Shown here piece by piece: positions 12,081 to 26,223 of a stretch of DNA of 64,000 nucleotides. The stretch spans positions 92,234 to 156,233 of the forward strand of contig NZ_BJXA01000014.1 of NCBI RefSeq assembly GCF_007990755.1, given 5' to 3'. Position 1 is the first letter of the stretch, and each line of letters begins with the position of its first letter. The notes under the pieces were generated by a model. That model saw only the letters and a program-made list of their open reading frames with translations, was not told where the DNA came from and made no database searches. The position numbers and the translations under genes were made by a program. The DNA comes from Nocardia ninae NBRC 108245. Lineage in GTDB: Bacteria > Actinomycetota > Actinomycetes > Mycobacteriales > Mycobacteriaceae.

Positions 12081-13406
12081 TCAGTCTGTTGCCGGTTCGC
12101 CGATGGCGTCGGCCTCGGGATGGGTTGCCAAGTACGCATCTCGGACGGCCGGGGTGCTTAGCACGAGAGCGCCTGCAAGCCAGGCGCGGTCGCCTCGCTG
12201 GGGATGGCGCTCACTCAGCGGTCGGGCTAGGTGGCGGGTCGCTGTTCCTGCCGGATCGCTGTCGTAAGGGTAGGCGCCCCACACTGTTGCTTCATCGACG
12301 GTGGGATTGCACCAGAATTCGTGCATCACTTCGTGGATCAATGGCCGCGCTTCCTCGGTTTCTAGGTTTTCGAGGGCGGCGGCGAACTCGTAGAGCGTGG
12401 AACGATATATGTCGAGCCCCCAGGTGTCGGCACCCAAGTTCGTCTTCGATTGAAGGATGGGCGCAACTTCTCCCGAGGGTTCTCGGTGATAGCCGGAAAC
12501 GATGCCGTGGTCACCCATGCAGAAGGTTTCGACCAGGAAGGGTGCGTCGGGAACCCGCCAGTTCAACCCCTGTCCCACTGCCGTGTTGTAGATGAAGGCG
12601 GCGACTTTCTCGGGATCGGTCCAGCCAGTTGGGCGTGGCTCGTGACCCCACAGCAGGACGTGGGGGCGTTGCAATCCGGCTGTCTCGCAGACCTGAACGA
12701 GGGATCCGATCATTCGACCAGTCCAACCGGCATCGACCAGTCCTGTAGTTGGATCGGCGAGCGTATGTTGCACGGCGTACTCGGTCAGCAGCTCTCGGGT
12801 CCGACTGATTCGCGGCGCTGTCGCGGCGGTGACCTCGGGCGTCCGCACGAACCGACGCATGGCGGTGGCCTGCTGGTCTTGGTCCGCGCGGACGTCAGGA
12901 TCCAAGGAGACGTGTGACGCGACAAGTAGCGGCTCGAATTCGCTGATCGCGAGTCCCAGGCGCGAACACAGGTCTGCCGCGTTGGATTTCATGAAGCTGT
13001 TGAACAACCAGGCTGCCTTGTCTAGGTTGTCGGGGTCAGTTGCTGCCAGGCTCCAGGTGAGTCGACTGCTGTAGACGTACTGCAGATCCAGGTCTACACC
13101 GATCACTGGTGCAAGTCGTCGTGCCAGCTCGTAAAACACCTGCCCGTCACGGGATAAGAACCTGAGGCGGTGGAGTCCTCGGCGCTGTGCTTCCCGCAGC
13201 ATCCAGACAACACACCCTGCGAGAGCGGGAGCTGCCACGCCAGCAGCCACGTCCCGGATAACTGCCTCTCGTTCCGTCCCGGCCGCGGTCTTGGTTCGGG
13301 CTTGCTTGCTTGCATAGAGGAACTGCGCTGCTGGGTCACCGAACCGACTGGAGTGGTTCAGCATGATCCGTTCGTAACGGGACGTTGCAATGGTTGTGTC
13401 GCGCAT
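12081..13406 (-). CDS. HAD-hydrolase-associated protein (COG5610-like C-terminal part)
   Basis: A 441-residue soluble protein. It contains the phrase RFLSRDGQVFYELA (about residues 81-94) and later LVDAGWTGRMIGSL, both reminiscent of the second domain of COG5610 predicted HAD-type hydrolases found near polysaccharide genes. The HAD nucleophile (DxD) is not visible. It starts three bases after the STAND regulator stop and is therefore co-transcribed with it, divergent from the biosynthetic operon. Its role in the cluster is unknown. Confidence 0.45.
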   Translation of the reverse strand: MRDTTIATSRYERIMLNHSSRFGDPAAQFLYASKQARTKTAAGTEREAVIRDVAAGVAAPALAGCVVWMLREAQRRGLHRLRFLSRDGQVFYELARRLAPVIGVDLDLQYVYSSRLTWSLAATDPDNLDKAAWLFNSFMKSNAADLCSRLGLAISEFEPLLVASHVSLDPDVRADQDQQATAMRRFVRTPEVTAATAPRISRTRELLTEYAVQHTLADPTTGLVDAGWTGRMIGSLVQVCETAGLQRPHVLLWGHEPRPTGWTDPEKVAAFIYNTAVGQGLNWRVPDAPFLVETFCMGDHGIVSGYHREPSGEVAPILQSKTNLGADTWGLDIYRSTLYEFAAALENLETEEARPLIHEVMHEFWCNPTVDEATVWGAYPYDSDPAGTATRHLARPLSERHPQRGDRAWLAGALVLSTPAVRDAYLATHPEADAIGEPATD

Positions 13407-13409
13407 CGG

Positions 13410-16352
13410 TCACCATTCTTTCAGCACCGCGCCGACTCTATCCGGGGTGGCGATGTCGTGGCGATGACAGATCGTTATGGCCGCGCCCATCAGCGGAGCG
13501 GAGTCCTCGCCCCGTTGTTCGGCCAGCCTGGCCAGGCTGGCCTGAACACGCGCAACCCACAATTCATCGCCAAGCTCTGTGAAGATCGAGCGGGCGCAGG
13601 CTAGGGCGGCTTCCGCTGCATCGAAATTGCCTGTGTCTCTGCGTAACACACCGAGTTCCCGCAACGCCCTCGCTTCGGCTGGGCGGTCGCCGATGGATCG
13701 GAAAACCGCGAGCGCTGCCTCGACTTGATAGTCTGCGACCTCCCACTGCTCATCGCATCGGTTCAGGTCTGCCATGCTCAGTTGTGTACGCGCAGACCAA
13801 CGTTCATCGCCGATACCCTCGAATATCTGCAATGCGTTCTGAAGGTCGGCTGCGGCAGCAGCCCGGTTCTCGGCGAGGCGATACGCGTCACCTCGGTTGC
13901 GAAGCGTGACACCCATGCCGCGACGGTCGGCGAGCAACTCGAATCGCGACAGGCATTCGTCGAAGACAGCCAACGCTCCCTTGATGTCTCCTTCGTTGCG
14001 GCGCACGACTGCTATGTGCCGGAGCGCTCGGGCCTCCCAGCGTTGATCTTCGAGTCGCCGGAAAGTCGTGAGCGCCTGGGTGAACAGGCGGGCCGCCTCC
14101 TCGTTGCGCCACTGATCGCGATGGACCAGCCCATAGCGGATCAGTGTTCGTGCTTCTTCGAGCTGGTCGTTGAGACTGCGGTAGATGGTCAGGCTCGCTT
14201 CGAAATGCTCGCGGGCGTCATCCCATCGGGACAATCCACGGCTCGCGTCGGCGATGCCGTTGAGAACACCAGCGACGGATCGTGTGTCGCCTTCGGTTTG
14301 GACGATGTCGAGCGCAGCGGAGAAGGCTCTGATGGCGTCGTCGAGTCGTCCCTGGTATCGCCGGGTGTCACCGAGGTTTCTCATTGCGGCTGCCCACTGG
14401 CGCCGGTCGCCGATGCGCAAGAAGATCTCGGTTGCCTGGGTGAGCATGTCGACGGCTTCACCGAAGCGCCCTAGCTCGCGGTAGAGCGCGCCCATGTTCC
14501 GGAGGATCACTGCTTCGGCGTGATGATTCGCCATCTTTCGTGCTGCATCACGGGCGAGCCGATGGGTATGGGCCCATGCTTGCCAATCGGCACGCCAGTC
14601 GAACATCGTGGGCAGTGTTTCTACGAGTTGCCAAGTGCGATCCCATAATTCAGCGTCATACGCAAGATCCACCGCAGCAATCAAGTTGGCACGTTCAGCT
14701 GTGAACCATCCGCGTGGATCGTCTCGACAGAGTTTGTCGACTGCCGCAGTTGTGGACGTTGCGGCTGTCGCAGTTGCGGACGTGGCCGCGTGGTCGTCGT
14801 ACAAGCCGGGATGCAGTGCGGCGGACGCCGCACGGACGCCGTCGGTGTACCGGCCGACGAGTCGATGGACGGCTGCGCAACGTAGGTCGGGTGCATCGAG
14901 GGTCGTGGAGCACTCGCGGGCGAAGTCTCGGATCAGATCGTGCAGCCTGTATCGGATCAGCCCAACTGCATCGGTGCCCGCGACTTCGACGAGCTGTGCG
15001 TCGACGAGACACTCCAATAGCTGCTCGGCCTCATCAACATCGACGTCGAGCAGCGCGGCGACATTCCACGCGGGAAAGCTCGCCGCAGTCAACGCCAGCA
15101 TCCGGAAAGTTGTTTGCTCCTGGTTACTGCGGCTCTGGTAGCTCAAAGCGAAGGAGGCCCGGACCTCGAGGTCGCCGGCCTTCAGCAGGTCCAAACGGCG
15201 GCTTTCGTCAGCGAGCCGGTCGGCGAACCATGAGATCTTCCACGTCGGCCTGGACATCAGGCGCGCCCCCGCGATGCGCAGCGCGAGGGGTAGATAGCCA
15301 CACAGCCGGGCCACTTCGAGAACTGAATCCGGTTCTGTTGCCGCGCGCTGAGATCCGACCAGCGCCATGAGCAGCGTGGCCGCTTGCTCTGCCGGAAGAA
15401 CGTCCAGATGGATCGTGTTCGAACCAGACAGGGCTGCCATATGGGATCGGCTGGTGACAAGGACCGCGCTGGTCGCAGCACCTGGCAAGAGCGGGCGGAT
15501 TTGCGTTTCGTCGGCGGCGTTGTCGAGGACGACGAGGATGCGGCGCCGGGCCAGGTGTGTGCGATACATCCGCGCCCGTTCGTCTGTGCCCTCCGGAATG
15601 TCGGTGCCAGCAACGCCGAGCTCACGCAGGAAGCCCGCCACGACTTCGCCAGCTGCTAGTGGATGAGGTTCGACGCCACGAAGGTTGGCGTAAAGCTGAC
15701 CGTCAGGAAATGCGTGGGCAACCATGTGCGCGACATGGATCGCGAGGGCTGTCTTGCCAACACCGGCCTGACCGGAAACCGTCGCGATCGGTACCGCGGT
15801 CCTCGTGGTGGAGGCCAGGACGTTGATCAGCTGCGCGATCTGGTCGTTGCGGCCGGTGAAGTCGTCGGTGTCGGGAGGCAGATGTCTCAGCGCTCTGGAG
15901 CCGCTGTCACTGTCCGACGACCTTCCGTGCCCGGTGTCGCTGCCCTGCGCCGATCGTTCCAGCGCCATCCGTACAGACGGCGCATAGTCCGAAGCCCAAC
16001 CCAGCTGGACCGGATTCGTCCGAAACAGGCGACACAGCAGGTCCTGATAGTCCCAACTCGGGCGCGATCCGGCTTCCCACTCCATCCAGGACCGGGCGAC
16101 AAGCCCTCGTTGCTTGAGCTTCTCGCGTCGACACATCAGATGGAACTGATCGACGGCCTCGGCGACTGTCCATCCCCAGGCGAGCCTGTGTGACTTGAAC
16201 AGGTTGTGCCCGCATTGTTCAGCGATCTCGTGGGCCATGGCGTGCAGGAGTTCGATCCGCAGATCATCGCCGCGCCGTAGGTCGTGGAGATATCGGCTAC
16301 GGATTCGGTCGGCGCAGCTGTCCTCACGACGCCCAGATCCGTTCTCGCCCAT
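13410..16352 (-). CDS. STAND regulator: HTH-like N-terminus, NB-ARC ATPase, TPR repeats
   Basis: A 980-residue regulator from the ATG at 16352; an in-frame start at 16451 adds 33 non-conserved residues. Residues about 40-110 resemble an HTH-type region (KLKQRGLVARSWMEWEAGSRP). An NB-ARC ATPase follows with Walker A GQAGVGKTAL and Walker B RRILVVLDNA. The C-terminal half is made of about eight TPR-like repeats (RxLGDxRRYQGRxDDAIRAF type). Such STAND regulators often control secondary-metabolite clusters. It diverges from the operon at 16651 across a 300-base intergenic region, so it is the likely pathway regulator. Confidence 0.8.
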   Translation of the reverse strand: MGENGSGRREDSCADRIRSRYLHDLRRGDDLRIELLHAMAHEIAEQCGHNLFKSHRLAWGWTVAEAVDQFHLMCRREKLKQRGLVARSWMEWEAGSRPSWDYQDLLCRLFRTNPVQLGWASDYAPSVRMALERSAQGSDTGHGRSSDSDSGSRALRHLPPDTDDFTGRNDQIAQLINVLASTTRTAVPIATVSGQAGVGKTALAIHVAHMVAHAFPDGQLYANLRGVEPHPLAAGEVVAGFLRELGVAGTDIPEGTDERARMYRTHLARRRILVVLDNAADETQIRPLLPGAATSAVLVTSRSHMAALSGSNTIHLDVLPAEQAATLLMALVGSQRAATEPDSVLEVARLCGYLPLALRIAGARLMSRPTWKISWFADRLADESRRLDLLKAGDLEVRASFALSYQSRSNQEQTTFRMLALTAASFPAWNVAALLDVDVDEAEQLLECLVDAQLVEVAGTDAVGLIRYRLHDLIRDFARECSTTLDAPDLRCAAVHRLVGRYTDGVRAASAALHPGLYDDHAATSATATAATSTTAAVDKLCRDDPRGWFTAERANLIAAVDLAYDAELWDRTWQLVETLPTMFDWRADWQAWAHTHRLARDAARKMANHHAEAVILRNMGALYRELGRFGEAVDMLTQATEIFLRIGDRRQWAAAMRNLGDTRRYQGRLDDAIRAFSAALDIVQTEGDTRSVAGVLNGIADASRGLSRWDDAREHFEASLTIYRSLNDQLEEARTLIRYGLVHRDQWRNEEAARLFTQALTTFRRLEDQRWEARALRHIAVVRRNEGDIKGALAVFDECLSRFELLADRRGMGVTLRNRGDAYRLAENRAAAAADLQNALQIFEGIGDERWSARTQLSMADLNRCDEQWEVADYQVEAALAVFRSIGDRPAEARALRELGVLRRDTGNFDAAEAALACARSIFTELGDELWVARVQASLARLAEQRGEDSAPLMGAAITICHRHDIATPDRVGAVLKEW

Positions 16353-16650
16353 ATTCTTTACGCCCCCCACATTGCGTTCCCGCGACACGTGATGGCCTGT
16401 ACGGTAACCCGCCCTACCCGACTGCCGCATGGCATCGGGCTCGACGAGCACGCAAGAGTGCCGCGCAGGTGAGGTGGCGTCTCGGTCTGGCTGAGGTCAC
16501 CGCCGATGCGGTGGCTGTCAGCAGCGAAAAGGTCCTGCGGTGTCACCTCTCGCGTGTGAGGCGCGCTCTCGTCTATCCGTGGAGCCCGGTGCCCGGCGAC
16601 CCTGGACTGTGCGCTTTGACCGGCACGCAACCACTTTGAAGGGAGGACCA
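16353..16650. promoter_or_regulatory. divergent promoter region of the biosynthetic cluster
   Basis: About 300 bases between the STAND regulator (leftward) and the operon start (rightward). A possible -35 (TTGACC) lies at about 16616 on the plus strand, but no convincing -10 is seen. It is followed by a strong Shine-Dalgarno AAGGGAGG at 16639-16646. No other gene with credible start signals is present. Confidence 0.45.
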
Positions 16651-16713
16651 ATGACCAAGCGACCCTGGCGTCGACCACTGTGGCGTGCTCGAAATGTCCG
16701 GACCCACTGCTGA
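16651..16713 (+). CDS. 20-residue ORF, candidate RiPP precursor peptide
   Basis: ATG at 16651 sits four bases after AAGGGAGG, the strongest Shine-Dalgarno in the cluster. The peptide reads MTKRPWRRPLWRARNVRTHC and then stops at 16711-16713. It is the first gene of the operon and is followed by a PqqD-like protein and a SPASM radical SAM enzyme. That is the usual layout of small RiPP precursors such as PqqA or MftA. The composition is notable: seven Arg, two Trp and a C-terminal Thr-His-Cys. It could instead be a regulatory leader peptide. Expression is untested. Confidence 0.55.
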   Translation: MTKRPWRRPLWRARNVRTHC

Positions 16714-16804
16714 TACCCCTCGCCCATCGCGGTGTGCGGATCGCCGACGCCGACCATTCGCACACCGCAACCAGCGCTACCAACCGGATAGGCAAGGAAG
16801 CACA

Positions 16805-17095
16805 TTGACTCCCAAGCAGCTTGCAGACATCAGTGTGGCGCTACAACCACATGCGGTGTGTCGGAGGACAACCTCCGGCTTGACGATGCTCTTCGATCGT
16901 GCCAAGGGGGTGATGTACGAGCTCAACGAATCCGCTTCAGCCATAGTCGAACTGCTCAGCACCGATCCCATGCCAGTCGGCCAGATCGTCGACACCTTAT
17001 GCGCACAGTTCGAGGCGCCGAGCGAGGAGATCGCCGCCGATGTGCAAGTGTTCGTCGACGATTTCCTCGAAGCTGGCATGTTGAAGACGAGCTGA
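16805..17095 (+). CDS. PqqD-like RRE protein
   Basis: A 96-residue protein from a TTG start with AGGAAG four bases upstream. The core (LMLFDRAKGVMYELNESASAIVELL ... IVDTLCAQFEAPSEEIAADVQVFVDDFLEAGML) matches the PqqD/RRE (RiPP recognition element) fold: a winged-helix domain that binds the precursor leader and presents it to a radical SAM enzyme. The radical SAM gene begins five bases after its stop. An upstream ATG at 16685 is open but lacks a Shine-Dalgarno and overlaps the peptide ORF. Confidence 0.82.
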   Translation: MTPKQLADISVALQPHAVCRRTTSGLTMLFDRAKGVMYELNESASAIVELLSTDPMPVGQIVDTLCAQFEAPSEEIAADVQVFVDDFLEAGMLKTS

Positions 17096-17100
17096 TCATC

Positions 17101-18270
17101 GTGCAGCACAACATGCTTCTAGCGTGGCCGGATGATTTTCAGCTGACCGAAAACCCTATACCGATCCTCGTCCAGCTCGGTCTGACCTATCGCTGCAACC
17201 TCAAGTGCACCCACTGCTACGCCCTGTATCGGCGCTCCAGAGACGAATTCACCCTCACTGAGATTGAAAGCCTTGCCGATCAACTTTATGACGCGGGTAG
17301 CGCGAGCCTGGTCTACTCGCACGGGGAGAACATGATTCGGCGCGACTTCCACGATGCTGCCACGATCTTCCGTGACCGCGACTTCTATCAGACGCTGATG
17401 CTCAACGGGTTCTATGTGCGCACGCCCGATGATGCGGCGCGACTTGTCCAATCCGGCATCAACCGAACAATGGTGTCCATCGATAGCATCGACCCGACAG
17501 TGCACGACAAGGTCCGGGGCAAGTCCGGCGCGTTCGACGTCGCCGTCCGGGCACTGCGTCTGCTGAAGGACGCCGGGATACCCACCGTCGGCTTCTCTAC
17601 GACGATCGACACTCACAACTACGGGCAGGTCGAGCGAATCGCGGAATTCGCCCGCGACCTTGGTATTGACGCGGTCAGCTTCATGCAGAACCGCTACAAC
17701 CTCACCAATGTCTTCGATCGCGCTCTCTGGCCTACCTACCAGGCCGTATGCCGCACGCTGTATCAACTGATTCTCGACAATCAGGGAGTGCTGGACGTCT
17801 ACACCCACGACCCCTTTATGCTCACCGTGCTCGATGACCGGCTGACCGATCGTCGTGCCCGCGAAACCTTCATCGGCTCGAACCTGTGCAACGTCGCAAC
17901 CAGCATGGTCTCGATCGACCCGATCGGAAACGTCTCCGGGTGCAACTTCATCGAGGAAAGCATCGGCAATGTCCGGGACGAGCCCTTCCAGCAGATCTGG
18001 GACCGGCTGGTCAACCGGTATTCCGACCGAATCGAATCTCCGTCAGGCCCGTGCGGGTCATGTTCGGCACTTGGTCCGTGCATGGGTGGTTGCAAAGCTT
18101 TTCACTACAACGGCAAGTATGACGAGCGCTGCGGTGAGCAGCGGTTTGTCGACCAGGAGTCGCATCAGATCGGCACCAGCGACAAACCGATTCCGGTGAG
18201 CGCACCGGGTCGAGCGCCCGGCGTCTTCGTCGGACTGCCCCGTGTCCGGGTGAGCGAGGAGACACGATGA
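17101..18270 (+). CDS. radical SAM peptide-maturase-like enzyme with SPASM domain
   Basis: A 389-residue enzyme from a GTG at 17101 (ATG at 17113 also possible). The SAM-cleaving 4Fe-4S motif is C32-x3-C36-x2-C39 (RCNLKCTHCY). The C-terminal SPASM domain has the full set of cysteines: C263, C281, C318-x2-C321-x5-C327-x3-C331 and C344. These should bind two auxiliary Fe-S clusters. PqqE, MftC and sactionine synthases share this architecture and modify ribosomal peptides with a PqqD partner, which is encoded just upstream. Likely first modification: oxidation or cross-linking of the peptide. The chemistry cannot be told from sequence. Confidence 0.88.
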   Translation: MQHNMLLAWPDDFQLTENPIPILVQLGLTYRCNLKCTHCYALYRRSRDEFTLTEIESLADQLYDAGSASLVYSHGENMIRRDFHDAATIFRDRDFYQTLMLNGFYVRTPDDAARLVQSGINRTMVSIDSIDPTVHDKVRGKSGAFDVAVRALRLLKDAGIPTVGFSTTIDTHNYGQVERIAEFARDLGIDAVSFMQNRYNLTNVFDRALWPTYQAVCRTLYQLILDNQGVLDVYTHDPFMLTVLDDRLTDRRARETFIGSNLCNVATSMVSIDPIGNVSGCNFIEESIGNVRDEPFQQIWDRLVNRYSDRIESPSGPCGSCSALGPCMGGCKAFHYNGKYDERCGEQRFVDQESHQIGTSDKPIPVSAPGRAPGVFVGLPRVRVSEETR

Positions 18271-19661
18271 GGGTCCTGTTCGTGAATCCTCACTACACCC
18301 ACGACCCTCGCACGCTGTTGCTGCACCCGCCACTGGGCTACGCCTATATGGCCCGCGCGCTGAAGATGGCCGGCCACGACGTCGTCCATGTGGACCTGCC
18401 ATTTGAGGGCAACAGCCCAGAGGCGTTGATCCCACGTTTGGATGATCTGCGGCCGGACCTCATCGGAGTCACCTCTGTTGCTCAAAGCTACTTCCATGCG
18501 GTCGAATTGGCCCGCATCGCTCGATGCTGGAACCCGACTGTCCCGGTCGTGTTCGGCGGACCGCACGTGTCCTTCATCGCCACCGAGTGTCTCCAGCGGC
18601 ATCCCAGCGTCGACTACGTGCTGCTGTTCGACGCCGAGGAAAGCATCGTGTGCCTAGCCGATGCTCTCGCCGCGGGCGCTGCCTCGCACGATCTCGAGAA
18701 AGTCCCGGGCCTCGTCTTCCGCGACGGCTCCGGTATACGTGCGACAGCGCCAGCGCCCCCCGAAATGCAGCTGGACCGATACGGACAACCGGACCGCTCA
18801 ATCTTCGACCTGCGCAACTACCTGGACTACGACTACGAAACCGTGGTGATGACCGCTCGGGGATGTCCCAGCCGTTGCACCTTCTGCTCCACCACCATTG
18901 CCGGGCGCACCGCTCGCTGGAATAGCCCCGCTCACGTGGCCGACGAGATGGAAGCCGTTGCTGAGATGGGGTTCTCGTCGATCTTCTTCGGAGATGACAC
19001 CTTCTCCGGCGACCCCCGACGTGCCGTGGCAATCTGCGAAGAAATCAGTCGACGCAGGCTGGCGATCCCCTGGACAAGCAACATGCGCGCCCAAGACGCA
19101 CGCCCCCACGTCCTCGATGCCATCCGTGAGGCGGGCGCATATCGGGTGTTCGTCGGCTTCGAATCGATCCAGGAGCATACCCTTCGATTGGTCAAGAAGG
19201 GAACTTCGCCCGCGCGGCTGTATAAAACCGCCCAGCGGATCATGGATGCCGGGCTGGAACTACACGCCTCCTTCATCGTCGGGGCACCCGGCGACACCCC
19301 GGAAACACTTTCGGCCACCATGGATTTCATCAGGTTGGTCAACCCGACAGTCGCCACATTCAACGTGATGGAGCCGCGCCCCGGGACCGACCTGTTCGCC
19401 AACCCGGCCAAGTACGGGATCACCATTCCTGACCGCTACTGGTATGAAACAACCGACTGGCTGCACCTGCCGGTATGTCACAACGATTCGATGTCCGCGA
19501 CCGACATTCGCGACTGGGTCAGCCGCTGCTACGACGAGTTCTGCGACCCCGACTTCCGATCAACCGATCACCTCCAACGCCTCACCCCCGTTCGTAAGCA
19601 TTGGGACGAAGCCGCAGAAAAGGTTCAGCGCCATCTCCCCCTGACAACGGCACGCCGATGA
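18267..19661 (+). CDS. B12-binding-domain radical SAM enzyme
   Basis: A 464-residue class B-type radical SAM protein that overlaps the previous gene (ATGA). Residues 1-140 form the Rossmann-like cobalamin-binding domain (MRVLFVNPHY start, PVVFGGPHVSF). The radical SAM core follows with C200-x3-C204-x2-C207 (RGCPSRCTFCS) and a GDDTFSG region. Enzymes of this type often methylate unactivated carbons but some do other chemistry. In this operon a C-methylation of the peptide or product is the simplest guess. Confidence 0.85.
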   Translation: MRVLFVNPHYTHDPRTLLLHPPLGYAYMARALKMAGHDVVHVDLPFEGNSPEALIPRLDDLRPDLIGVTSVAQSYFHAVELARIARCWNPTVPVVFGGPHVSFIATECLQRHPSVDYVLLFDAEESIVCLADALAAGAASHDLEKVPGLVFRDGSGIRATAPAPPEMQLDRYGQPDRSIFDLRNYLDYDYETVVMTARGCPSRCTFCSTTIAGRTARWNSPAHVADEMEAVAEMGFSSIFFGDDTFSGDPRRAVAICEEISRRRLAIPWTSNMRAQDARPHVLDAIREAGAYRVFVGFESIQEHTLRLVKKGTSPARLYKTAQRIMDAGLELHASFIVGAPGDTPETLSATMDFIRLVNPTVATFNVMEPRPGTDLFANPAKYGITIPDRYWYETTDWLHLPVCHNDSMSATDIRDWVSRCYDEFCDPDFRSTDHLQRLTPVRKHWDEAAEKVQRHLPLTTARR

Positions 19662-20665
19662 CTATCCGGATCGCGCTCGTCGGCGCTGGCCTTGCCGCTC
19701 GCTCACACGCCTTGGACATAATCACCGATCCGACAATGGAACTCACCGGAGTCACTGCGAGGAGCGCTGCCTCAGCCCGAGCGTTCACCGCCATATTCGG
19801 CGGGACCATCTACCCTGACGTCGAGGCAATTGTCGATGACGATCGCGTCAACGCTGTCGTTGTCGCAGTACCGCCCTCCGCGGTCCTCGGAGTCACCGAG
19901 CAACTAGATATCAACAAGCCCTGCCTCGTCGAGAAGCCAATCGTGACAACCGACAGCGAACGCGACCGCCTGTCGAACCTTGCCCAGCGATTCACTCACC
20001 TCATTGCGCCCTTCAATCGCCGCTATCAGCCCCACATCCGTCAAGCCGCCAACATGATCGAGTCTGGCCTGATCGGAAACGTGGTCGATGTCAATGCCCA
20101 GTGGCGGGGTCCGTACCGTTCACGCTTCGCCAACGACGGCGGAACCTATCGCGGCTCTGCCGGGCCCCGACACGGGGTACTCGTCGACACCGGTAGTCAT
20201 GCACTCGATCTGATCTCGATGCTGGTCGGCTACACCCATCCGATCCACGTGCTAGGCGGGCTCACCTGTAACGACCGCGGAGCCGACATAGCAGCCGAGC
20301 TCGAGATCGCCGCCGGAACCACAATCCGTCTGACGGTGACCGATGACCCGAACGCTCCCGAATGCGGCGGCTGGGCCGTCGTGGTGAACGGTGCCGCCGG
20401 ATCGCTAACCGTGGACAGCCGTGGCAGCCAGGTCCGCACGACGAGCTCTGGCACGCTGCAAGGCTTTCGCGCTGAACCGATGCACCGACCTGTCAGCGAT
20501 CTTGCCCGGATGGCGGACGGTATTGCCCCGCTCGGGTCGCCGATGGCCGAGGTCTTGACCGTCAGCGACGTCATCATCGCCGCCCACGACCACAACCAAC
20601 AGCGCCGAGCCCGATGGAAACGTCCCCGCGGCAAAGCACTGGGCCGACTCAACGGCGCCTGCTGA
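19658..20665 (+). CDS. Gfo/Idh/MocA-family NAD(P)-dependent oxidoreductase
   Basis: A 335-residue protein from an ATG overlapping the previous stop (ATGA). The N-terminus has the dinucleotide-binding motif ALVGAGLAARSHA and a VEKP motif (LVEKPIV) containing the conserved Lys-Pro. The C-terminal alpha/beta domain includes HGVLVDTGSHALDLISML. Members oxidise or reduce sugars, imines or ketones. In this cluster it may act on a product made by the radical SAM or oxygenase steps. The substrate is unknown. Confidence 0.85.
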   Translation: MTIRIALVGAGLAARSHALDIITDPTMELTGVTARSAASARAFTAIFGGTIYPDVEAIVDDDRVNAVVVAVPPSAVLGVTEQLDINKPCLVEKPIVTTDSERDRLSNLAQRFTHLIAPFNRRYQPHIRQAANMIESGLIGNVVDVNAQWRGPYRSRFANDGGTYRGSAGPRHGVLVDTGSHALDLISMLVGYTHPIHVLGGLTCNDRGADIAAELEIAAGTTIRLTVTDDPNAPECGGWAVVVNGAAGSLTVDSRGSQVRTTSSGTLQGFRAEPMHRPVSDLARMADGIAPLGSPMAEVLTVSDVIIAAHDHNQQRRARWKRPRGKALGRLNGAC

Positions 20666-20683
20666 CTCGAAGGGGAGCCCTCT

Positions 20684-21403
20684 GTGCAACAACCGCAGTT
20701 CGATTTCACACATAAGCCGCCGGAAGTGGGTGCATGTCGAACTACGTCCGTGGTGCCGCTCGGTGACCGCGTTGGCGCCGTCCGCGTCGAGCAGTTCTTC
20801 AATGACCAAGCCACAGCATTGCTTACACCGTTTCTGCACGGCGACCTTGTCTATGAGCGGGATGAGATCGGCGATCAGAAGCTCGTCAGTCGCGCGTCAC
20901 GCCAGGGTGATTTGCCCGACGACCCGCTCGTTCAGCGTTCCTCGACACTCGATGCTGACTCGGCTCTCGCTGTGTTGAATACATTCGGCAGTTCCTGGTT
21001 CATAGAGCAGCTCGGGGATTGGCTCAATACCCCCCTGCGAATGCTGCGGCCACCGACGCCCTACCGCATGGACGTCGGGGACTACGTCGAACCACACGAT
21101 GACCACCCTTCACCGGAATTCCGGCTATCGGTGACCTACAACCTGACCGCCAACTGGCAACCAGGCGATGGCGGTGAAACCGTTGTCGGCCTTGTCGAGG
21201 CGGTCACCGAGTTCGATCACCCCGATTTCCCATTCCCACTCAAGACATGGACCCTCGGCACTGGTGCGCAGTCACTTGAACCCGTCTTCAATTCCGTGTT
21301 GCTGCTCCCACTGTCAGACGAGCAGGCCCATGCCGTCCGCCCGGTTCGCCGAGCATCGCGGTACTCGATCACCACCCTCTACGGCGACAGGACCTCCCAT
21401 TGA
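20684..21403 (+). CDS. 2-oxoglutarate/Fe(II) oxygenase, prolyl-4-hydroxylase-like
   Basis: A 239-residue protein from a GTG behind AAGGGGAG, 18 bases after the oxidoreductase. It has the metal-binding facial triad: H138-D-D140 (PHDDHP) and H216 (AHAVRPV). R226 (SRYSITTLY) is the expected 2-oxoglutarate-binding Arg. The segment LSVTYNLTANWQPGDGGET is typical of the prolyl hydroxylase-like group. It probably hydroxylates a carbon of the peptide or released amino acid. Confidence 0.82.
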   Translation: MQQPQFDFTHKPPEVGACRTTSVVPLGDRVGAVRVEQFFNDQATALLTPFLHGDLVYERDEIGDQKLVSRASRQGDLPDDPLVQRSSTLDADSALAVLNTFGSSWFIEQLGDWLNTPLRMLRPPTPYRMDVGDYVEPHDDHPSPEFRLSVTYNLTANWQPGDGGETVVGLVEAVTEFDHPDFPFPLKTWTLGTGAQSLEPVFNSVLLLPLSDEQAHAVRPVRRASRYSITTLYGDRTSH

Positions 21404-22320
21404 CTGCGTCTCTGCTGACCGAGGACGAGCGACACCACTGGGACACCTTCGGCTACCTGCATTTCCGCAACGTGCTTGCACCGAACGAGACACATCAGCT
21501 GCATCGTTCATTGACAGCGGTGCACACCCGCTCCACCGACACTGCGGACCGGCACCAGCACTGGGAGGATCTGTTCGACGCTGGCAACGATCGGGATCTG
21601 AGTATCGCCAACGCCGTCTCACATTGTGACGAGATCGGTTCTCTCCTAGACCATCCCGGCGTCTTCGGGAAGATCCTCGGTCTCATGGGACCGTATGTGC
21701 AGGTTCTGGGATCCGAAGCGTTCTTCCGTTACCCCTACTCCGAGCCGTTGGTCGACTTCCACACCGACCAGGGGCCATCGCTACGCCAAGCCGCGCCCGC
21801 CGCAGGCAAAGAGATCCAGCTCAAGATCCAATTCTTCCTGACCGATCTAACCCAACCGGACCACGGAAACTTCACTGTCGCACCAGGTTCACACCGCGCA
21901 GACTTTCCCGGCAAAGTCGCCTACACCCAAGTGAACGACCCAGTCCAGATCCTGGCCAACGCCGGGGATGCGGTGATCTTCCCTTTATCGCTGGGTCACG
22001 GCGTCGCCCGGAACCATTGCCCGGCCACCCGAGTCAGCGTGGTGCTCAGATATGGCCAAATCTTCTGCCGCCCAGTCGATTACTGGAAGATGCCAGCCGA
22101 GGTTTTGAACCGGCTGTCGCCGCGCCAGCGACGACTACTCGGCGACCTCGGGGCACGTCAACGCCCCGGAGACGTCTACGGCCAGATACCTGACCAGCTG
22201 AAGCTGATCTACGGGCAGGAGTGGTTAGCCACCAGGGATGCGCAACTAGATCTTCACGCGGGCCACCATGACCAAGCTGCGTACGAGGACCTGTCGCGAG
22301 GAGCAAGTCAGCATGCCTGA
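21400..22320 (+). CDS. phytanoyl-CoA dioxygenase (PhyH)-family oxygenase
   Basis: A 306-residue non-heme iron enzyme starting at TTG inside the previous stop (TTGA). The motif is H121-x-D123 (DFHTDQG), with H200 (SLGHGVARN) and R211 as the second His and the 2-oxoglutarate Arg. The N-terminal WDTFGYLHFRNVL is the usual PhyH opening. It is a second 2-oxoglutarate oxygenase in the same operon, so at least two oxidations are likely. The carbamoyltransferase start overlaps it by eight bases. Confidence 0.82.
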   Translation: MTASLLTEDERHHWDTFGYLHFRNVLAPNETHQLHRSLTAVHTRSTDTADRHQHWEDLFDAGNDRDLSIANAVSHCDEIGSLLDHPGVFGKILGLMGPYVQVLGSEAFFRYPYSEPLVDFHTDQGPSLRQAAPAAGKEIQLKIQFFLTDLTQPDHGNFTVAPGSHRADFPGKVAYTQVNDPVQILANAGDAVIFPLSLGHGVARNHCPATRVSVVLRYGQIFCRPVDYWKMPAEVLNRLSPRQRRLLGDLGARQRPGDVYGQIPDQLKLIYGQEWLATRDAQLDLHAGHHDQAAYEDLSRGASQHA

Positions 22321-24091
22321 AGTCGTACTGGGAGTGAATCTCACCCGGACCAGCGACGGCATTCCCCTCGACGATGGTGCCGCGGCACTACTCGAAGACG
22401 GCGTGGTGACGGTGGCGATCGCCGAGGAGCGCCTCGTGCGACGCAAACACGCAGGCGGCGTCGTCAACGCCGTGCGCTACTGCCTTGCCACTCGCGGACT
22501 GGAACTGCACGACGTCGATCGTGTCGCTGTCAGCCTGTGTTGTGACCTACCGCCCGAGCCTGCGATGGCGTTGTCTCAGCTGAGATCCGAAGGACTTGCC
22601 GTCCGCGAAGACCAACTGGTCGTCGTTCCCTCGCATCATCTTTCTCACGCAGCCAGCGCGTTCTACCCGAGCCCGTTCGAAGACGCCGTGGTGATCGTGG
22701 CCGACAACGAAGGCACCATCATCGGCGATCGAACACGAACCCACTACTGGCACAACCGACTCGAACGCACCAGCGTCTTCATCGGGCGCGGAACCGAACT
22801 ACAACTCTTGCGCCGCTATGGTGACGAGCCCGGACAGCTCAGCCTCGGTGCAACCTACAACCACTTCATCAAGTGGCTAGGGTTCCGGACTCACCATGAG
22901 GCTGGCCAAGTCATGGCGCTGGCCGCGTACGGGAGCGGCAAGCTCAGCAGCGTCGAGATATTCACCTCGATCAACGATGGCTTTCGTTGCCTTCTACAGC
23001 CAGCCCTGCTTACCAACCAGGTCGAGGAGCATAAGACCGGTCCGCCTGACGAATTCGATATCGAGGCCGCACGACTCCTGCAGGCTGACGCAGTCCGAGC
23101 CCTGATCATGGAGCAGTCCGGCATCGATATCGGCGCCGGTCGCAGTTCCTGCTACGAGCCCGATCAGACCCAATGTGACGTCGCGGAGCTGATCCAATCC
23201 GAACTACAGCATGCCCTCGTCGAGCTCGTGCGGTCCACCATCGACGAGACCGGCATCCAGCGAGTCTGTCTGGCAGGAGGCGTCGCTCTGAACTGTGTGG
23301 CAAACACGATGATCGCCCAGTTGAATGAGATCGAGGAGCTCTACATCCAACCGGCCGCAGGCGATGTCGGGCAACCACTCGGAAACGCGCTGTTGGCATA
23401 TCACCACACGAAAAGGCGTCCTCGGCACTGGACGATGCCGACATGCGCGCTGGGCCGCTCTTACCCCACATCAGAGGTCGACGCTGTCCTAGAGCGATGC
23501 TCAGACCGGATCGCTACCGAGACGATCGACGATCCAGCAGCGACCGCCGCCCTGCTTCTCACGCAGCAGTTGACTATCGGATGGTTCAGCGGAGGAAGCG
23601 AGTTCGGCCCCCGTGGGCTCGGACGCCGCAGCGTGCTGGGCGATCCCCGATCCGCCGAGACAAAAACCCGGCTCGACAACCTTCACAAACTTCGGGCACC
23701 GTTTCGTCCCTATGCACCGAGCGTCCTAGCTGAGGAAGTTTCCGCCTGGTTCGACGTCGACGATCGGTTCACCCGAACTGCGGCGCAACCAATGTCGGCC
23801 ATGCTGGTGGCACCCAAGCTGCGGGAAGACAGATCCCATCTGGTTCCAGCAGTTGCCTTTACCGACGGCACCGCACGACTACAGGCCGTGACCGCCCATG
23901 AAAACCCGCTCTACTACAGACTCATTCGCCACTTCGCCAGGCTCACCGGTATCCCGATGGTCCTCAACACCTCTTTCAACGCCAGCGGTGATCCTGTTGT
24001 CGAGACCCCGGAAGATGCCATAGAAAGCATGCTCAAAATGCGGTTGGACGCGCTGATCATCGACCGTCGACTGGTGCGCGCGAAGGGATGA
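22313..24091 (+). CDS. carbamoyltransferase, NodU/CmcH family
   Basis: A 592-residue enzyme; the ATG at 22313 has GAGGAG upstream. The N-terminal Kae1-like domain begins VVLGVNLTRTSDG and contains HHLSHAASAFYPSPFEDAVVI and ADNEG. The C-terminal domain has FGPRGLGRRSVLGDPR and a late GIPMVLNTSFN. Family members transfer a carbamoyl group from carbamoyl phosphate to hydroxyl groups of natural products (nodulation factors, cephamycin, tobramycin). A hydroxyl made by one of the two upstream oxygenases is a plausible acceptor. Confidence 0.9.
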   Translation: MPEVVLGVNLTRTSDGIPLDDGAAALLEDGVVTVAIAEERLVRRKHAGGVVNAVRYCLATRGLELHDVDRVAVSLCCDLPPEPAMALSQLRSEGLAVREDQLVVVPSHHLSHAASAFYPSPFEDAVVIVADNEGTIIGDRTRTHYWHNRLERTSVFIGRGTELQLLRRYGDEPGQLSLGATYNHFIKWLGFRTHHEAGQVMALAAYGSGKLSSVEIFTSINDGFRCLLQPALLTNQVEEHKTGPPDEFDIEAARLLQADAVRALIMEQSGIDIGAGRSSCYEPDQTQCDVAELIQSELQHALVELVRSTIDETGIQRVCLAGGVALNCVANTMIAQLNEIEELYIQPAAGDVGQPLGNALLAYHHTKRRPRHWTMPTCALGRSYPTSEVDAVLERCSDRIATETIDDPAATAALLLTQQLTIGWFSGGSEFGPRGLGRRSVLGDPRSAETKTRLDNLHKLRAPFRPYAPSVLAEEVSAWFDVDDRFTRTAAQPMSAMLVAPKLREDRSHLVPAVAFTDGTARLQAVTAHENPLYYRLIRHFARLTGIPMVLNTSFNASGDPVVETPEDAIESMLKMRLDALIIDRRLVRAKG

Positions 24092-24882
24092 CGATGTTCG
24101 ATGCCGAGAACATCGCCGCGCAACGCGAGGCTGAGTACTACGACCTCGTCACCGACTGGCGCCACGATGCCGACTTCTTCACAGCTCTCGCCAAAGAACA
24201 CGGCGGCCCCATCCTGGAACTCGGATGCGGGACCGGCCGAATCACCCTGCAGATTGCCCGGACAGGAATCACGATCGAGGGCCTCGACCTGGGAGTGGAA
24301 CGACTCCGCATCGCAGAGGCCGCCAACAGCGCACTGCCTCCGCAGATGCAAGCCCGGTTCCATCACGCCGACATGCGGACCTTTGTCCTCGATCACACAT
24401 TTCGCATGGCAATGTTTCCCTACCGAGTGCTGCAGGAGCTGACCACGGTCGCCGACAAGATGGATTGCCTTCGGCAGGTCCACGCTCACCTCGACCACGA
24501 CGGGCTCCTTCTCATCGACAACTACTCTCCCTCCATCCCGTACCTAGCTGCCGACCCAAGTCACTGCACAACCAGTTGCGAGAAGCTCGGACCGGCCGGC
24601 GAAACGATCCGATACACGCAACTCGTGCTCTCCCGCGACTACAGCAACCAGACTCAACAACTGCAGGTCGTCTACGACATCAGCTATCTGGACGAGTCGA
24701 CCGAGCACTTCGTCATCCCCTACGAAACGAGTTACATGTTCCGATTCGAGCTTGAGCACCTGCTGTCGCGATGCGGATTCACCGTCTGCTCTGTGTGGGG
24801 CGGGTACGGCTTCGAACCGTTCGCAGACGATTCCCCCGGAGAACTGATCGTGCTTGCCCAACGCGCCGACCAGCCGATGTAG
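24088..24882 (+). CDS. class I SAM-dependent methyltransferase
   Basis: A 264-residue protein starting in the stop of the carbamoyltransferase. It has the SAM-binding motif I ILELGCGTGRITL (about residues 42-54), an acidic EGLDLG after the second strand, and a later HHADMRTF. The C-terminus (FVIPYETSYMFRFELEHLLSRCGF) is typical of small-molecule methyltransferases. It is the last tailoring enzyme before the HisRS gene. N- or O-methylation cannot be distinguished. Confidence 0.82.
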   Translation: MTMFDAENIAAQREAEYYDLVTDWRHDADFFTALAKEHGGPILELGCGTGRITLQIARTGITIEGLDLGVERLRIAEAANSALPPQMQARFHHADMRTFVLDHTFRMAMFPYRVLQELTTVADKMDCLRQVHAHLDHDGLLLIDNYSPSIPYLAADPSHCTTSCEKLGPAGETIRYTQLVLSRDYSNQTQQLQVVYDISYLDESTEHFVIPYETSYMFRFELEHLLSRCGFTVCSVWGGYGFEPFADDSPGELIVLAQRADQPM

Positions 24883-24954
24883 GCCACCGCCTACCATCTC
24901 CGATGTACCGCGAGCATCCCCGCGGTGAGGAATCGAACGAGCGAAGGACCACTG

Positions 24955-26223
24955 GTGAAAGCCGACAACAGCCCCGCCCGCGGAATGAGGGACCTGCTCC
25001 CCGCCGACGTCGCGACCCGGGACCATGTGCTGGAGGCAATCACGAGGACCTACCGCGATTTCGGTTACCAACGCATCGAGACACCAGCACTGGAAGACAT
25101 CAATCGGCTGCAAGGCGGCCAAGGCGGCGAAAACGAAAAGCTGATCTACCAGGTGCTCAAGCGCGGCCTGCCCGAGGAACCCGAGCCCGGTACGCAAATC
25201 CGGGACATGGTCGACCTCGGTCTGCGGTTCGACCTTACGGTCCCGCTGACTCGGTTCTACGGCAACAATCACGCTCAGCTGCCAACACCGTTCCGATCTC
25301 TACAGATCGGACCTGTCTGGCGAGCCGAACGACCACAAAAAGGCCGTTTCCGTCAGTTCTACCAATGCGACATCGACATGATCGGTGAGCCCACCGTCTT
25401 GGCAGAAGCCGAGCTCATCGAGGCAACAACCGCAGCCCTGGCCGCAGTCGGACTGGACGACCTCACCGTCCGTCTCTCCGATCGCCGCTTCCTGACCGCC
25501 CTCGCAGCCGATGCCGGACTACCCGAGCAGTCCTGGGATCGGTTCTTCATCGTGCTCGACAAACTCGACAAGATCGGCTGGGACGGAGTCCGTGCCGAAC
25601 TCGATAACGCCGGAATGCCCTCCGACACAACCACAGTCGTTATCGACAAGATCGACAGCCTCAACGACGTCGCTGGCGACAAACTCGCCGATACGCTCAC
25701 TGACACCCTGCCTGGTCTGTCGAGCGAAGTGATCGCCGACATCGCGACCACCACCGCGAGTCTGGATCGGCTCTCAGCACACCGATCACTGAAATGGCAG
25801 TTCGACCCCACACTCGTCCGCGGCATGGGCTACTACACCGGGCAGATCTTCGAGATCACCCACCCGGAGATGTCCAGCTCGGTTGCCGGCGGTGGCCGAT
25901 ACGACAAGCTGATCGGCCGTTCTCTCGGCAAGGACGTCCCGGCCTGCGGGTTTTCGATCGGATTCGAGCGCATCGTCGGCCTGCTGAGTAACGAGGCCCA
26001 GCGACATGCAACAGCCGTCCTCGCTGATCCCGACATTGCCGTCGCCGACGTCCTCGCGGTCGCGCGTGATCTGAGGTCTCAAGACCGCGTGGTCGAAGTC
26101 GTACGTCGAAGCGGCAAGCTTGGTGCGCAACTGAAGCGACTTCAAACTGCCGGGTTCGAAACATTCGTGACGATTGAGAGCGACGGAGGAACGATCGTCG
26201 TCAGCGAGGAACGAACCGTCTGA
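24955..26223 (+). CDS. histidyl-tRNA synthetase, atypical type, in the biosynthetic operon
   Basis: A 422-residue class II synthetase from a GTG with GAAGGACC upstream. It has motif 2 RAERPQKGRFRQFYQ (from R123), HisA-like LVRGMGYYTG (287-296), GGGRYDKLIG (312-321) and motif 3 GFSIGFERI. All expected catalytic segments are intact. The substrate region reads LRFDLTVP (90-97), the form usual in eukaryotes, archaea and some bacteria. Actinobacterial housekeeping HisRS normally has LRPEGT there. It is 72 bases after the methyltransferase and before the operon terminator. Likely self-resistance or supply of His-tRNA for the pathway. Its presence suggests a second copy elsewhere. Confidence 0.88.
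   Translation: MKADNSPARGMRDLLPADVATRDHVLEAITRTYRDFGYQRIETPALEDINRLQGGQGGENEKLIYQVLKRGLPEEPEPGTQIRDMVDLGLRFDLTVPLTRFYGNNHAQLPTPFRSLQIGPVWRAERPQKGRFRQFYQCDIDMIGEPTVLAEAELIEATTAALAAVGLDDLTVRLSDRRFLTALAADAGLPEQSWDRFFIVLDKLDKIGWDGVRAELDNAGMPSDTTTVVIDKIDSLNDVAGDKLADTLTDTLPGLSSEVIADIATTTASLDRLSAHRSLKWQFDPTLVRGMGYYTGQIFEITHPEMSSSVAGGGRYDKLIGRSLGKDVPACGFSIGFERIVGLLSNEAQRHATAVLADPDIAVADVLAVARDLRSQDRVVEVVRRSGKLGAQLKRLQTAGFETFVTIESDGGTIVVSEERTV

Follow-up and report, generated by a model that had tools for sequence, protein, structure and literature searches.

A Nocardia gene cluster with a conserved 20-codon peptide, radical SAM enzymes and a second histidyl-tRNA synthetase: a candidate family of ribosomal peptides directed against HisRS

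Introduction

What might a bacterium make from an operon in which a peptide of 20 codons is encoded ahead of two radical S-adenosylmethionine (SAM) enzymes, and which is closed by a gene for a histidyl-tRNA synthetase (HisRS)? The question is raised by a 64,000-nucleotide (nt) stretch of the genome of Nocardia ninae NBRC 108245 (contig NZ_BJXA01000014.1, positions 92,234 to 156,233; the host assembly comprises 9.7 Mb in 204 contigs), which is referred to here as the window. From its 20-codon open reading frame (ORF) the operon continues through genes for a PqqD-like protein, a SPASM radical SAM enzyme, a B12-binding radical SAM enzyme, a Gfo/Idh oxidoreductase, an Oxy_3 oxygenase, a PhyH-type oxygenase, a NodU-type carbamoyltransferase and a methyltransferase to the HisRS gene. 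Adjacent genes overlap by 4-8 nt at five junctions (SPASM/B12, B12/Gfo, oxygenase/PhyH, PhyH/NodU and NodU/methyltransferase), with gaps of 18 nt ahead of the first oxygenase and of about 70 nt ahead of HisRS. A preliminary description of this DNA had reported such a compact operon with overlapping genes; the ORFs lie where it had placed them, with the families assigned by means of Pfam and NCBIfam.

We consider it reasonably likely that this cluster is the biosynthetic locus of a new family of ribosomally synthesised and post-translationally modified peptides (RiPPs), built around a RiPP recognition element (RRE) and radical SAM enzymes, whose product would inhibit HisRS while the HisRS of the cluster would provide immunity.

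The proposed precursor peptide

The 20-codon ORF heads the operon at 16651..16713 (+), encodes MTKRPWRRPLWRARNVRTHC and has, as described before, a strong Shine-Dalgarno sequence, GGGAGG, directly 5' of it. We compared it with ten related loci from a scan for close relatives, one genome being taken per species (counts out of 11 are the window plus these): Nocardia miyunensis, N. seriolae, N. abscessus, N. kruczakiae and N. beijingensis, Nonomuraea sp. G32, Saccharothrix sp. ALI-22-I, Lentzea sp. NBRC 105346, an Actinomycetota metagenome-assembled genome (MAG; locus L026) and Mucilaginibacter psychrotolerans (Bacteroidota), which span five named genera and the MAG in two phyla. The preliminary description had suggested looking in homologous operons for the short ORF and for its C-terminal residues, and the peptide is carried by 10/10 of these loci, with the consensus from the first Trp being W-R-[RK]-P-x-[WS]-R-A-R-N-[VI]-R-T-H-C-stop. 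The length of the N-terminus, as judged from candidate starts, gives a total of 20-22 residues for the Nocardia peptides and 20 for that of the MAG, against 24-34 for the remaining actinobacteria and 46 or 53 for Mucilaginibacter. At each of the ten loci the BLOSUM62 score relative to an 18-residue reference is 83-112 for the peptide and at most 38 for the next best 18-mer, and a search of the 11 whole genomes returned a single match in each at E<=3.5e-5, located at the cluster, with the next best match at 0.08. Over 17 codons, comparison of the window with each of its ten relatives gave 6-9 synonymous and 1-6 non-synonymous changes, and over all pairs there were 399 synonymous against 110 non-synonymous changes. 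The peptide is therefore under purifying selection at the codon level.

An encoded precursor thus stands beside modifying enzymes in 11/11 clusters, and it is kept nearly unchanged in 10/10 loci whose SPASM enzymes are 46-82% identical. We regard it as very likely that the peptide is the substrate of the pathway, as had been proposed. The invariant part is its C-terminus, N-x-RTHC. The tryptophan-arginine core, which the preliminary description had offered as one site of processing, is less well kept, since W11 is replaced by Ser in Mucilaginibacter and that Trp is thus not essential. Given that N, R, T, H and C are invariant among the last six residues, and given the link to HisRS, the His-Cys end would be the likeliest payload of the product.

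Distribution of the cluster

The peptide, PqqD, the SPASM enzyme, the B12 radical SAM enzyme, Gfo/Idh and HisRS form a core that is present in 11/11 clusters. Oxy_3 is found in 10/11, PhyH in 5/11 (all of them Nocardia), and NodU and the methyltransferase in 3/11 each, namely in the window strain, N. miyunensis and N. seriolae, the cluster of the last having been read from two contigs (L018 and L061) whose adjacency is inferred. In N. beijingensis the SPASM gene (L025:8649-9808; also G393:C83) is split over two frames, through either decay or a sequencing error, and the peptide and the other core genes were found.

The SPASM enzyme is rare. It occurs at 75% identity or more in 5/401 genomes of the family, window included; one of the five, G357, represents a further cluster outside the 11 compared, and seven more of the 401 passed 1e-30 at 32-35% identity. 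In the order sample it was found in 2/397 genomes, these being the window and a genome with the same Saccharothrix contig, and in the phylum sample in 1/296, the window itself. No close relative was found on plasmids, where 11 records matched, all at below 60%.

The 401 family genomes contain six strong matches to the peptide, which are the five genomes with a close SPASM enzyme and one more, G133; two further matches, both partial and with E 0.008, appear to be due to chance. What G133 retains, at the end of a contig (C137, L063), is the peptide together with the beginning of the regulator gene, and its 93% identity to the N. seriolae cluster breaks off 44 nt past the stop codon of the peptide. 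This genome gave no SPASM match and no match to the B12 radical SAM enzyme, the latter in a search that had no positive control in the same run, and it holds one HisRS only. The enzymes and the spare HisRS are thus absent together.

The second histidyl-tRNA synthetase

The HisRS gene of the operon (24955..26223, +; TIGR00442 312 bits, cut-off 286.75) is an additional copy. Each of the 11 genomes holds a HisRS in the cluster and another HisRS, both above the hisS cut-off in 10/11; the other copy of the MAG is cut by a contig end and scores 280 against a cut-off of 287, and that of the window genome scores 444 bits. An extra divergent aminoacyl-tRNA synthetase (aaRS) beside another copy, by which self-resistance aaRS genes are recognised, is therefore seen in 11/11 genomes.

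In a tree of 27 HisRS sequences (23 in a first tree) the cluster copies fall into three separate groups, formed by those of Nocardia, by those of Nonomuraea, Lentzea, Saccharothrix and the MAG, and by that of Mucilaginibacter. Forcing them into one clade is rejected (log-likelihood difference 151; approximately unbiased test, p 3e-49). The sequences closest to the Nocardia-type cluster copies are the second HisRS of the MAG and the sole HisRS found in four distant actinobacteria, at 43-51% identity, and no HisRS of the Lentzea type was found in a phylum search of 159 genomes, none of which is known to hold it. The HisRS genes of the clusters thus come from about three unrelated sources and are of foreign origin. 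On inspection by eye the class II motifs appear to be preserved in every copy, and the motif VRG..YYT reads VRAFEYYT in the cluster copies of Nonomuraea, Saccharothrix and Lentzea.

An enzyme that serves a fixed step of biosynthesis should remain the same ortholog throughout, whereas a spare target kept for resistance could be replaced by another complete HisRS type while the pathway around it is conserved, as is seen here. We therefore lean, with some confidence, towards the cluster HisRS being a self-resistance (immunity) gene, and its inclusion among the tailoring enzymes, as first described, is better replaced by this reading, given the second copy in 11/11 genomes and the three groups in the tree. 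A spare HisRS in every cluster, of several origins, also suggests that the product of the pathway is probably an inhibitor of HisRS.

Two further aaRS arrangements were noted in Saccharothrix sp. ALI-22-I. A second region (L060; G723:C45:118000-137900) contains a further pair of HisRS-like genes in a span of about 12 kb, at approximately 6.4-7.8 kb (+) and 16503-17822 (-), with neighbours that read by eye as nonribosomal peptide synthetase, MFS, ATP-grasp and class II aaRS-like genes, that is, a second and unrelated HisRS-linked cluster. Directly behind the cluster HisRS lies a seryl-tRNA synthetase paralog (L022:16630-17661, -; TIGR00414 338 bits, cut-off 302), and beside it (16433-16633) a 74-residue stretch is 42% identical to the N-terminus of NodU.

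The PqqD-like protein and radical SAM enzymes

The PqqD-like protein (16805..17095, +; Pfam PF05402 2.8e-16) probably starts at TTG 16805 and not at GTG 16685, from which the frame is also open. It has homologs in 11/11 clusters and, by its Pfam match, is predicted to be the peptide-binding RRE. It is followed by the SPASM enzyme, a putative maturase (17101..18270, +, with a start at GTG 17101 or ATG 17113; Pfam Radical_SAM 8.9e-24, SPASM 2.4e-6), in which CX3CX2C and seven more cysteines are invariant in 10 aligned rows, and by the B12-binding radical SAM enzyme (18267..19661, +; Pfam B12-binding 2.7e-20), which is 56-86% identical in the 10 relatives and has BchE as its best NCBIfam score. 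Among the NCBIfam families listed, RiPP families included (the best 25 of 60 for the SPASM enzyme and the best 25 of 30 for the B12 enzyme), the radical SAM and PqqD proteins fall below every cut-off.

The nearest solved relatives include SkfB and PqqE for the SPASM enzyme and AprD4, OxsB and TokK for the B12 enzyme. By analogy these would allow a thioether or a C-C bond, together with C-methylation or a rearrangement, and they do not decide between these. Alignment shows the radical SAM enzymes to be a single family, and in their tree Mucilaginibacter stands among the actinobacteria with weak support (81/79).

The C-terminal tail of the Gfo/Idh enzyme

The Gfo/Idh/MocA oxidoreductase (19658..20665, +; Pfam PF01408 2.6e-14) is found in 11/11 clusters, with proteins 22-54% identical to that of the window; its named relatives in the Protein Data Bank (PDB) are mostly sugar or inositol dehydrogenases. 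In all 11 the last 16 residues, which in the window are WKRPRGKALGRLNGAC (20615..20662, +), follow the pattern W-x-[RF]-P-R-x-K-x-x-[GA]-[RK]-x-[NSG]-G-[AS]-C, with the consensus W-x-R-P-R-x-K-A-L-G-R-L-N-G-[AS]-C, every one of them ending in Cys. Mean pairwise identity is 0.75 for the tail against 0.35 for the body, and 0/329 body windows of the same length are equally conserved. The PDB matches listed (the best 60 of 90 stretches) align only to profile position 310 of 337, short of the tail. Conservation of the tail is thus firm.

A kinship of the tail with the precursor is hinted at. Its first half resembles the leader of the precursor (TKRPWRRPLWRA versus RRARWKRPRGKA; hhalign P 0.0013, probability 18%), and both end in a C-terminal Cys. 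The score of the tail-precursor alignment was not significant against shuffles with the last Cys kept in the four loci shuffled, where 544 (window), 783 (L022), 2165 (L026) and 2444 (L023) of 5000 shuffles were as good. The pattern W..P..[KR].{6,9}C, chosen after the tail was seen, occurs at the C-terminus of 13/1209 mechanical ORFs, namely 11 Gfo frames and two that hold the peptide. The tail could be either a docking mimic or a second substrate. If it is the former, it would copy the leader and let the dehydrogenase share the RRE of the substrate; if the latter, it would be modified by the same radical SAM enzymes, with one machinery maturing an enzyme as well as a free peptide. The wider claim, of a new RiPP class that combines a HisRS inhibitor as product with a Gfo/Idh enzyme carrying a built-in precursor-like tail as docking tag or second substrate, is put forward tentatively, as we think it rather less likely to hold than to fail.

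Oxygenases and proposed lineage-specific decoration

The 2-oxoglutarate (2OG)-Fe(II) oxygenase of the Oxy_3 type (20684..21403, +; Pfam PF13640 9.1e-11) is prolyl-hydroxylase-like, and its HxD, distal H and R are invariant in 10 rows. The remaining enzymes are accessory. These are the PhyH-type 2OG oxygenase (21400..22320, +; Pfam PF05721 4.1e-11), the NodU/TobZ-type O-carbamoyltransferase (22313..24091, +; Pfam PF16861 8.8e-53, PF02543 1.7e-37), whose PDB relatives are novobiocin carbamoyltransferase, GdmN and TobZ, and the SAM methyltransferase (24088..24882, +; Pfam PF13649 3.6e-11), with the daptide methyltransferase as its best NCBIfam score (NF041820, 74.1 bits against a cut-off of 175). 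The tailoring set named in the preliminary description is thus present in full, but NodU and the methyltransferase (3/11) and PhyH (5/11) are not part of the core of the cluster, and HisRS, which is, is better read as a self-resistance gene than as a tailoring enzyme.

Outside Nocardia, where the carbamoyltransferase is lacking, small P-loop kinases are encoded in the clusters of Nonomuraea, Saccharothrix, Lentzea and Mucilaginibacter (AAA_28 in 4/4; thymidylate-kinase-like in the three scanned, the Lentzea one having a 60% homolog in Saccharothrix). A DUF6687 protein is encoded in the Nonomuraea and Mucilaginibacter clusters; that of Nonomuraea (L021), the window peptide and the peptide of locus L023 gave no NCBIfam match. 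Three Nocardia clusters have neither the carbamoyltransferase nor P-loop kinases. It seems that the scaffold is common and that its decoration differs by lineage.

Other genes were seen in individual clusters. That of the MAG contains a Glycos_transf_3/TrpD-like gene (L026:8690-9661), which hints at a (phospho)ribosyl step in the MAG lineage, and that of Nonomuraea has, on the opposite strand, a P-loop protein (L021:14052-15293, -) with a weak match to HPr kinase (22 bits, below cut-off). The Nocardia clusters without NodU and methyltransferase are accompanied by asparaginase, PCC-domain and HTH_31 genes (L019:6374-9321, L025:5021-7968 and L020:16611-19555; Pfam run on L019 and L020), upstream of the cluster in two cases and downstream in one.

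The interval behind the peptide and the divergent genes

The interval between the peptide and PqqD contains a predicted hairpin (16729..16768, +), the fold of 16714-16804 having -34.2 kcal/mol and a z of -3.5. Hairpins stand at this place in the window, L017, L018, L019, L025 and L026, with z from -3.5 to -0.5 (all z values are from approximate shuffles), and that in L020 is weak; the long stems of L017, L018, L019, L025 and L026 differ in sequence. In Mucilaginibacter a stem and then a run of seven T, as read by eye, come after the peptide. A candidate oxygenase start lies 2 nt behind the peptide in Nonomuraea (L021) and 5 nt behind it in Saccharothrix (L022), and no next-gene start as close was seen in Lentzea.

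Divergent from the operon lies a gene for an NB-ARC/TPR (STAND) protein, a likely regulator (13410..16451, -; Pfam NB-ARC 1e-13, TPR_12), with homologs of 64-67% identity in N. miyunensis (L017) and N. seriolae (L018) and a partial match of 32% in Nonomuraea (L021). Beside it a protein of 441 amino acids (12081..13406, -), with no match in the NCBIfam or Pfam scans, is 65-67% identical in L017 and L018 and, among the loci studied, is kept only together with the NB-ARC regulator.

Discussion

We hypothesise that the 20-residue peptide is made in excess, as its Shine-Dalgarno sequence and the hairpin behind it in most loci would permit, and that its basic, Trp- and Pro-containing N-terminal half (KRPWRRP) is bound by the PqqD-type RRE. 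The SPASM enzyme, the B12 radical SAM enzyme, Gfo/Idh and the prolyl-hydroxylase-like oxygenase would then modify the RARN[VI]RTHC half to a common scaffold. A new hydroxyl would be carbamoylated, and the product methylated, in the window strain, N. miyunensis and N. seriolae, and the hydroxyl would probably be phosphorylated where P-loop kinases stand, in Nonomuraea, Saccharothrix, Lentzea and Mucilaginibacter. A protease may release the product, which would mimic histidine or histidyl-adenylate and inhibit HisRS, the foreign HisRS of the cluster keeping the producer alive.

The role of HisRS is where the closest alternative parts from this proposal. In a RiPP pathway HisRS could itself be biosynthetic, supplying His-tRNA(His) or activated histidine for ligation onto the peptide, much as PEARL pathways use aminoacyl-tRNA via a LanB-like peptide aminoacyl-tRNA ligase. 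The gene is indeed in 11/11 clusters, its active-site motifs look intact and the peptide ends in His-Cys; but another HisRS already makes His-tRNA, no LanB-like tRNA-dependent ligase is among the nine proteins of the window operon by Pfam (the related loci being scanned in part), and the cluster copy has changed from one unrelated type to another in a core whose other members form one family, which suits a resistant target better. We judge this alternative unlikely, if the most serious of those considered. The peptide could also be questioned as a substrate. Were the ORF a regulatory leader or arrest peptide, its His codon would sense low His-tRNA(His) and turn on HisRS and the pathway; it does precede biosynthetic genes of its own strand in 11/11 clusters, most of the Nocardia loci, like that of the MAG, have a hairpin behind it, Mucilaginibacter has a stem with a run of T there, and arrest peptides can keep their sequence. 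Such an attenuator is nevertheless improbable, given that there is a single His codon and that the whole Trp-to-Cys stretch is conserved, including residues that stalling at His leaves unexplained. The next candidate start, 2 nt (Nonomuraea) or 5 nt (Saccharothrix) past the stop, leaves no room for it; in Nonomuraea the start of the peptide (8863) lies ahead of the end (8866) of a BTAD regulator gene of the same strand, with which it overlaps, and by position the peptide is not the head of a transcript there; and in Mucilaginibacter the radical SAM genes are on the other strand, not behind the peptide. Moreover, the PqqD/RRE and SPASM proteins need a peptide, with no other candidate precursor noticed, albeit in no systematic search, and the Gfo tail resembles this one. 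The hairpin pattern and the gaps of 2 and 5 nt thus fit excess expression of the precursor better than an attenuator common to all loci.

Least probable of all is a pathway like those of aminoglycosides or nucleosides, with a free sugar or amino acid as the substrate of the enzymes and an incidental peptide. Small molecules are the usual substrates of the Gfo/Idh, NodU and PhyH families, the PDB relatives of Gfo being mostly sugar or inositol dehydrogenases and the nearest relatives of NodU antibiotic carbamoyltransferases, and other clusters have kinases and a TrpD-like gene. Against this, the peptide is conserved across phyla, with one copy per genome, at the cluster, and PqqD is in 11/11 clusters.

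Several observations weigh against our proposal of a RiPP that inhibits HisRS. The other HisRS of the MAG (C260) groups with the Nocardia cluster copies, yet the MAG carries a cluster copy too, such that either resistance is no obvious property of the Nocardia type as such or the MAG contig is foreign. HisRS is the last gene, set behind the rest of the operon by its gap of about 70 nt, the HisRS tree contains several long branches, and we infer the label "housekeeping" for either copy from place and kinship. No protease or exporter was recognised in the window operon, the Oxy_3 gene was not detected in the MAG cluster (L026), and we know of no natural HisRS inhibitor for comparison.

If the proposal is correct, the near identity of the precursor in Actinomycetota and Bacteroidota speaks for a single valuable scaffold that is strongly selected, and repeated recruitment of foreign HisRS names its likely target, histidyl-tRNA synthetase, against which there is, to our knowledge, no natural antibiotic. 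The Gfo tail, if its reading is true, would represent either a novel means by which a tailoring enzyme recognises a RiPP substrate or a case in which the enzyme is a RiPP-type substrate as well.

Comparison with known systems

Among the titles and abstract openings listed from the open-licence literature on HisRS in connection with RiPPs, on self-resistance, on RiPP pathways with Gfo/Idh or with PqqD and SPASM proteins and on the peptide motif, none describes this pathway. The precursor/RRE/SPASM order is that of mycofactocin, in which mftA, mftB and mftC encode a short precursor, a PqqD-like RRE and a SPASM enzyme, and both occur in Actinomycetota. The window SPASM enzyme, however, scores 118.5 bits for MftC (TIGR03962), below the cut-off of 265, and shares 29-31% identity with the genes on plasmids that carry the annotation mftC; its peptide ends in His-Cys, whereas MftA ends in Val-Tyr, and a B12 radical SAM enzyme, oxygenases and HisRS replace the other mft genes. 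Pyrroloquinoline quinone (PQQ) biosynthesis likewise pairs a peptide, of 20-odd residues, with PqqD and a SPASM enzyme (pqqA/D/E), but the window proteins remain below its cut-offs (TIGR02109 for PqqE, 89.2 bits against 381.35; TIGR03859 for PqqD, 31.1 against 46), and the PQQ precursor carries Glu and Tyr, neither of which is in the window precursor. For the RRE of lasso peptides (NF033530) the score is 39.3 bits against 70, and no lasso cyclase is among the window proteins scanned.

A precedent for a ribosomal peptide that yields an aaRS inhibitor is microcin C, the payload of which is reported to inhibit AspRS through an isoaspartyl-nucleotide (PMC9239234). Our proposal shares with the MccA/MccB system a very short ribosomal peptide that would end in an aaRS inhibitor, but no MccB-like adenylyltransferase is among the window proteins scanned with Pfam. 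Self-resistant aaRS genes are a feature of the pathways of mupirocin (IleRS), albomycin (SerRS) and borrelidin (ThrRS), and as in these, a second divergent aaRS lies inside the biosynthetic cluster beside a housekeeping copy; HisRS is not among the examples that we know of, and here the aaRS is paired with a RiPP pathway of the radical SAM type. Finally, the O-carbamoyltransferase is of the same family as TobZ, GdmN and NovN of antibiotic pathways. Those enzymes decorate polyketides and sugars, whereas that of the window stands beside a peptide precursor.

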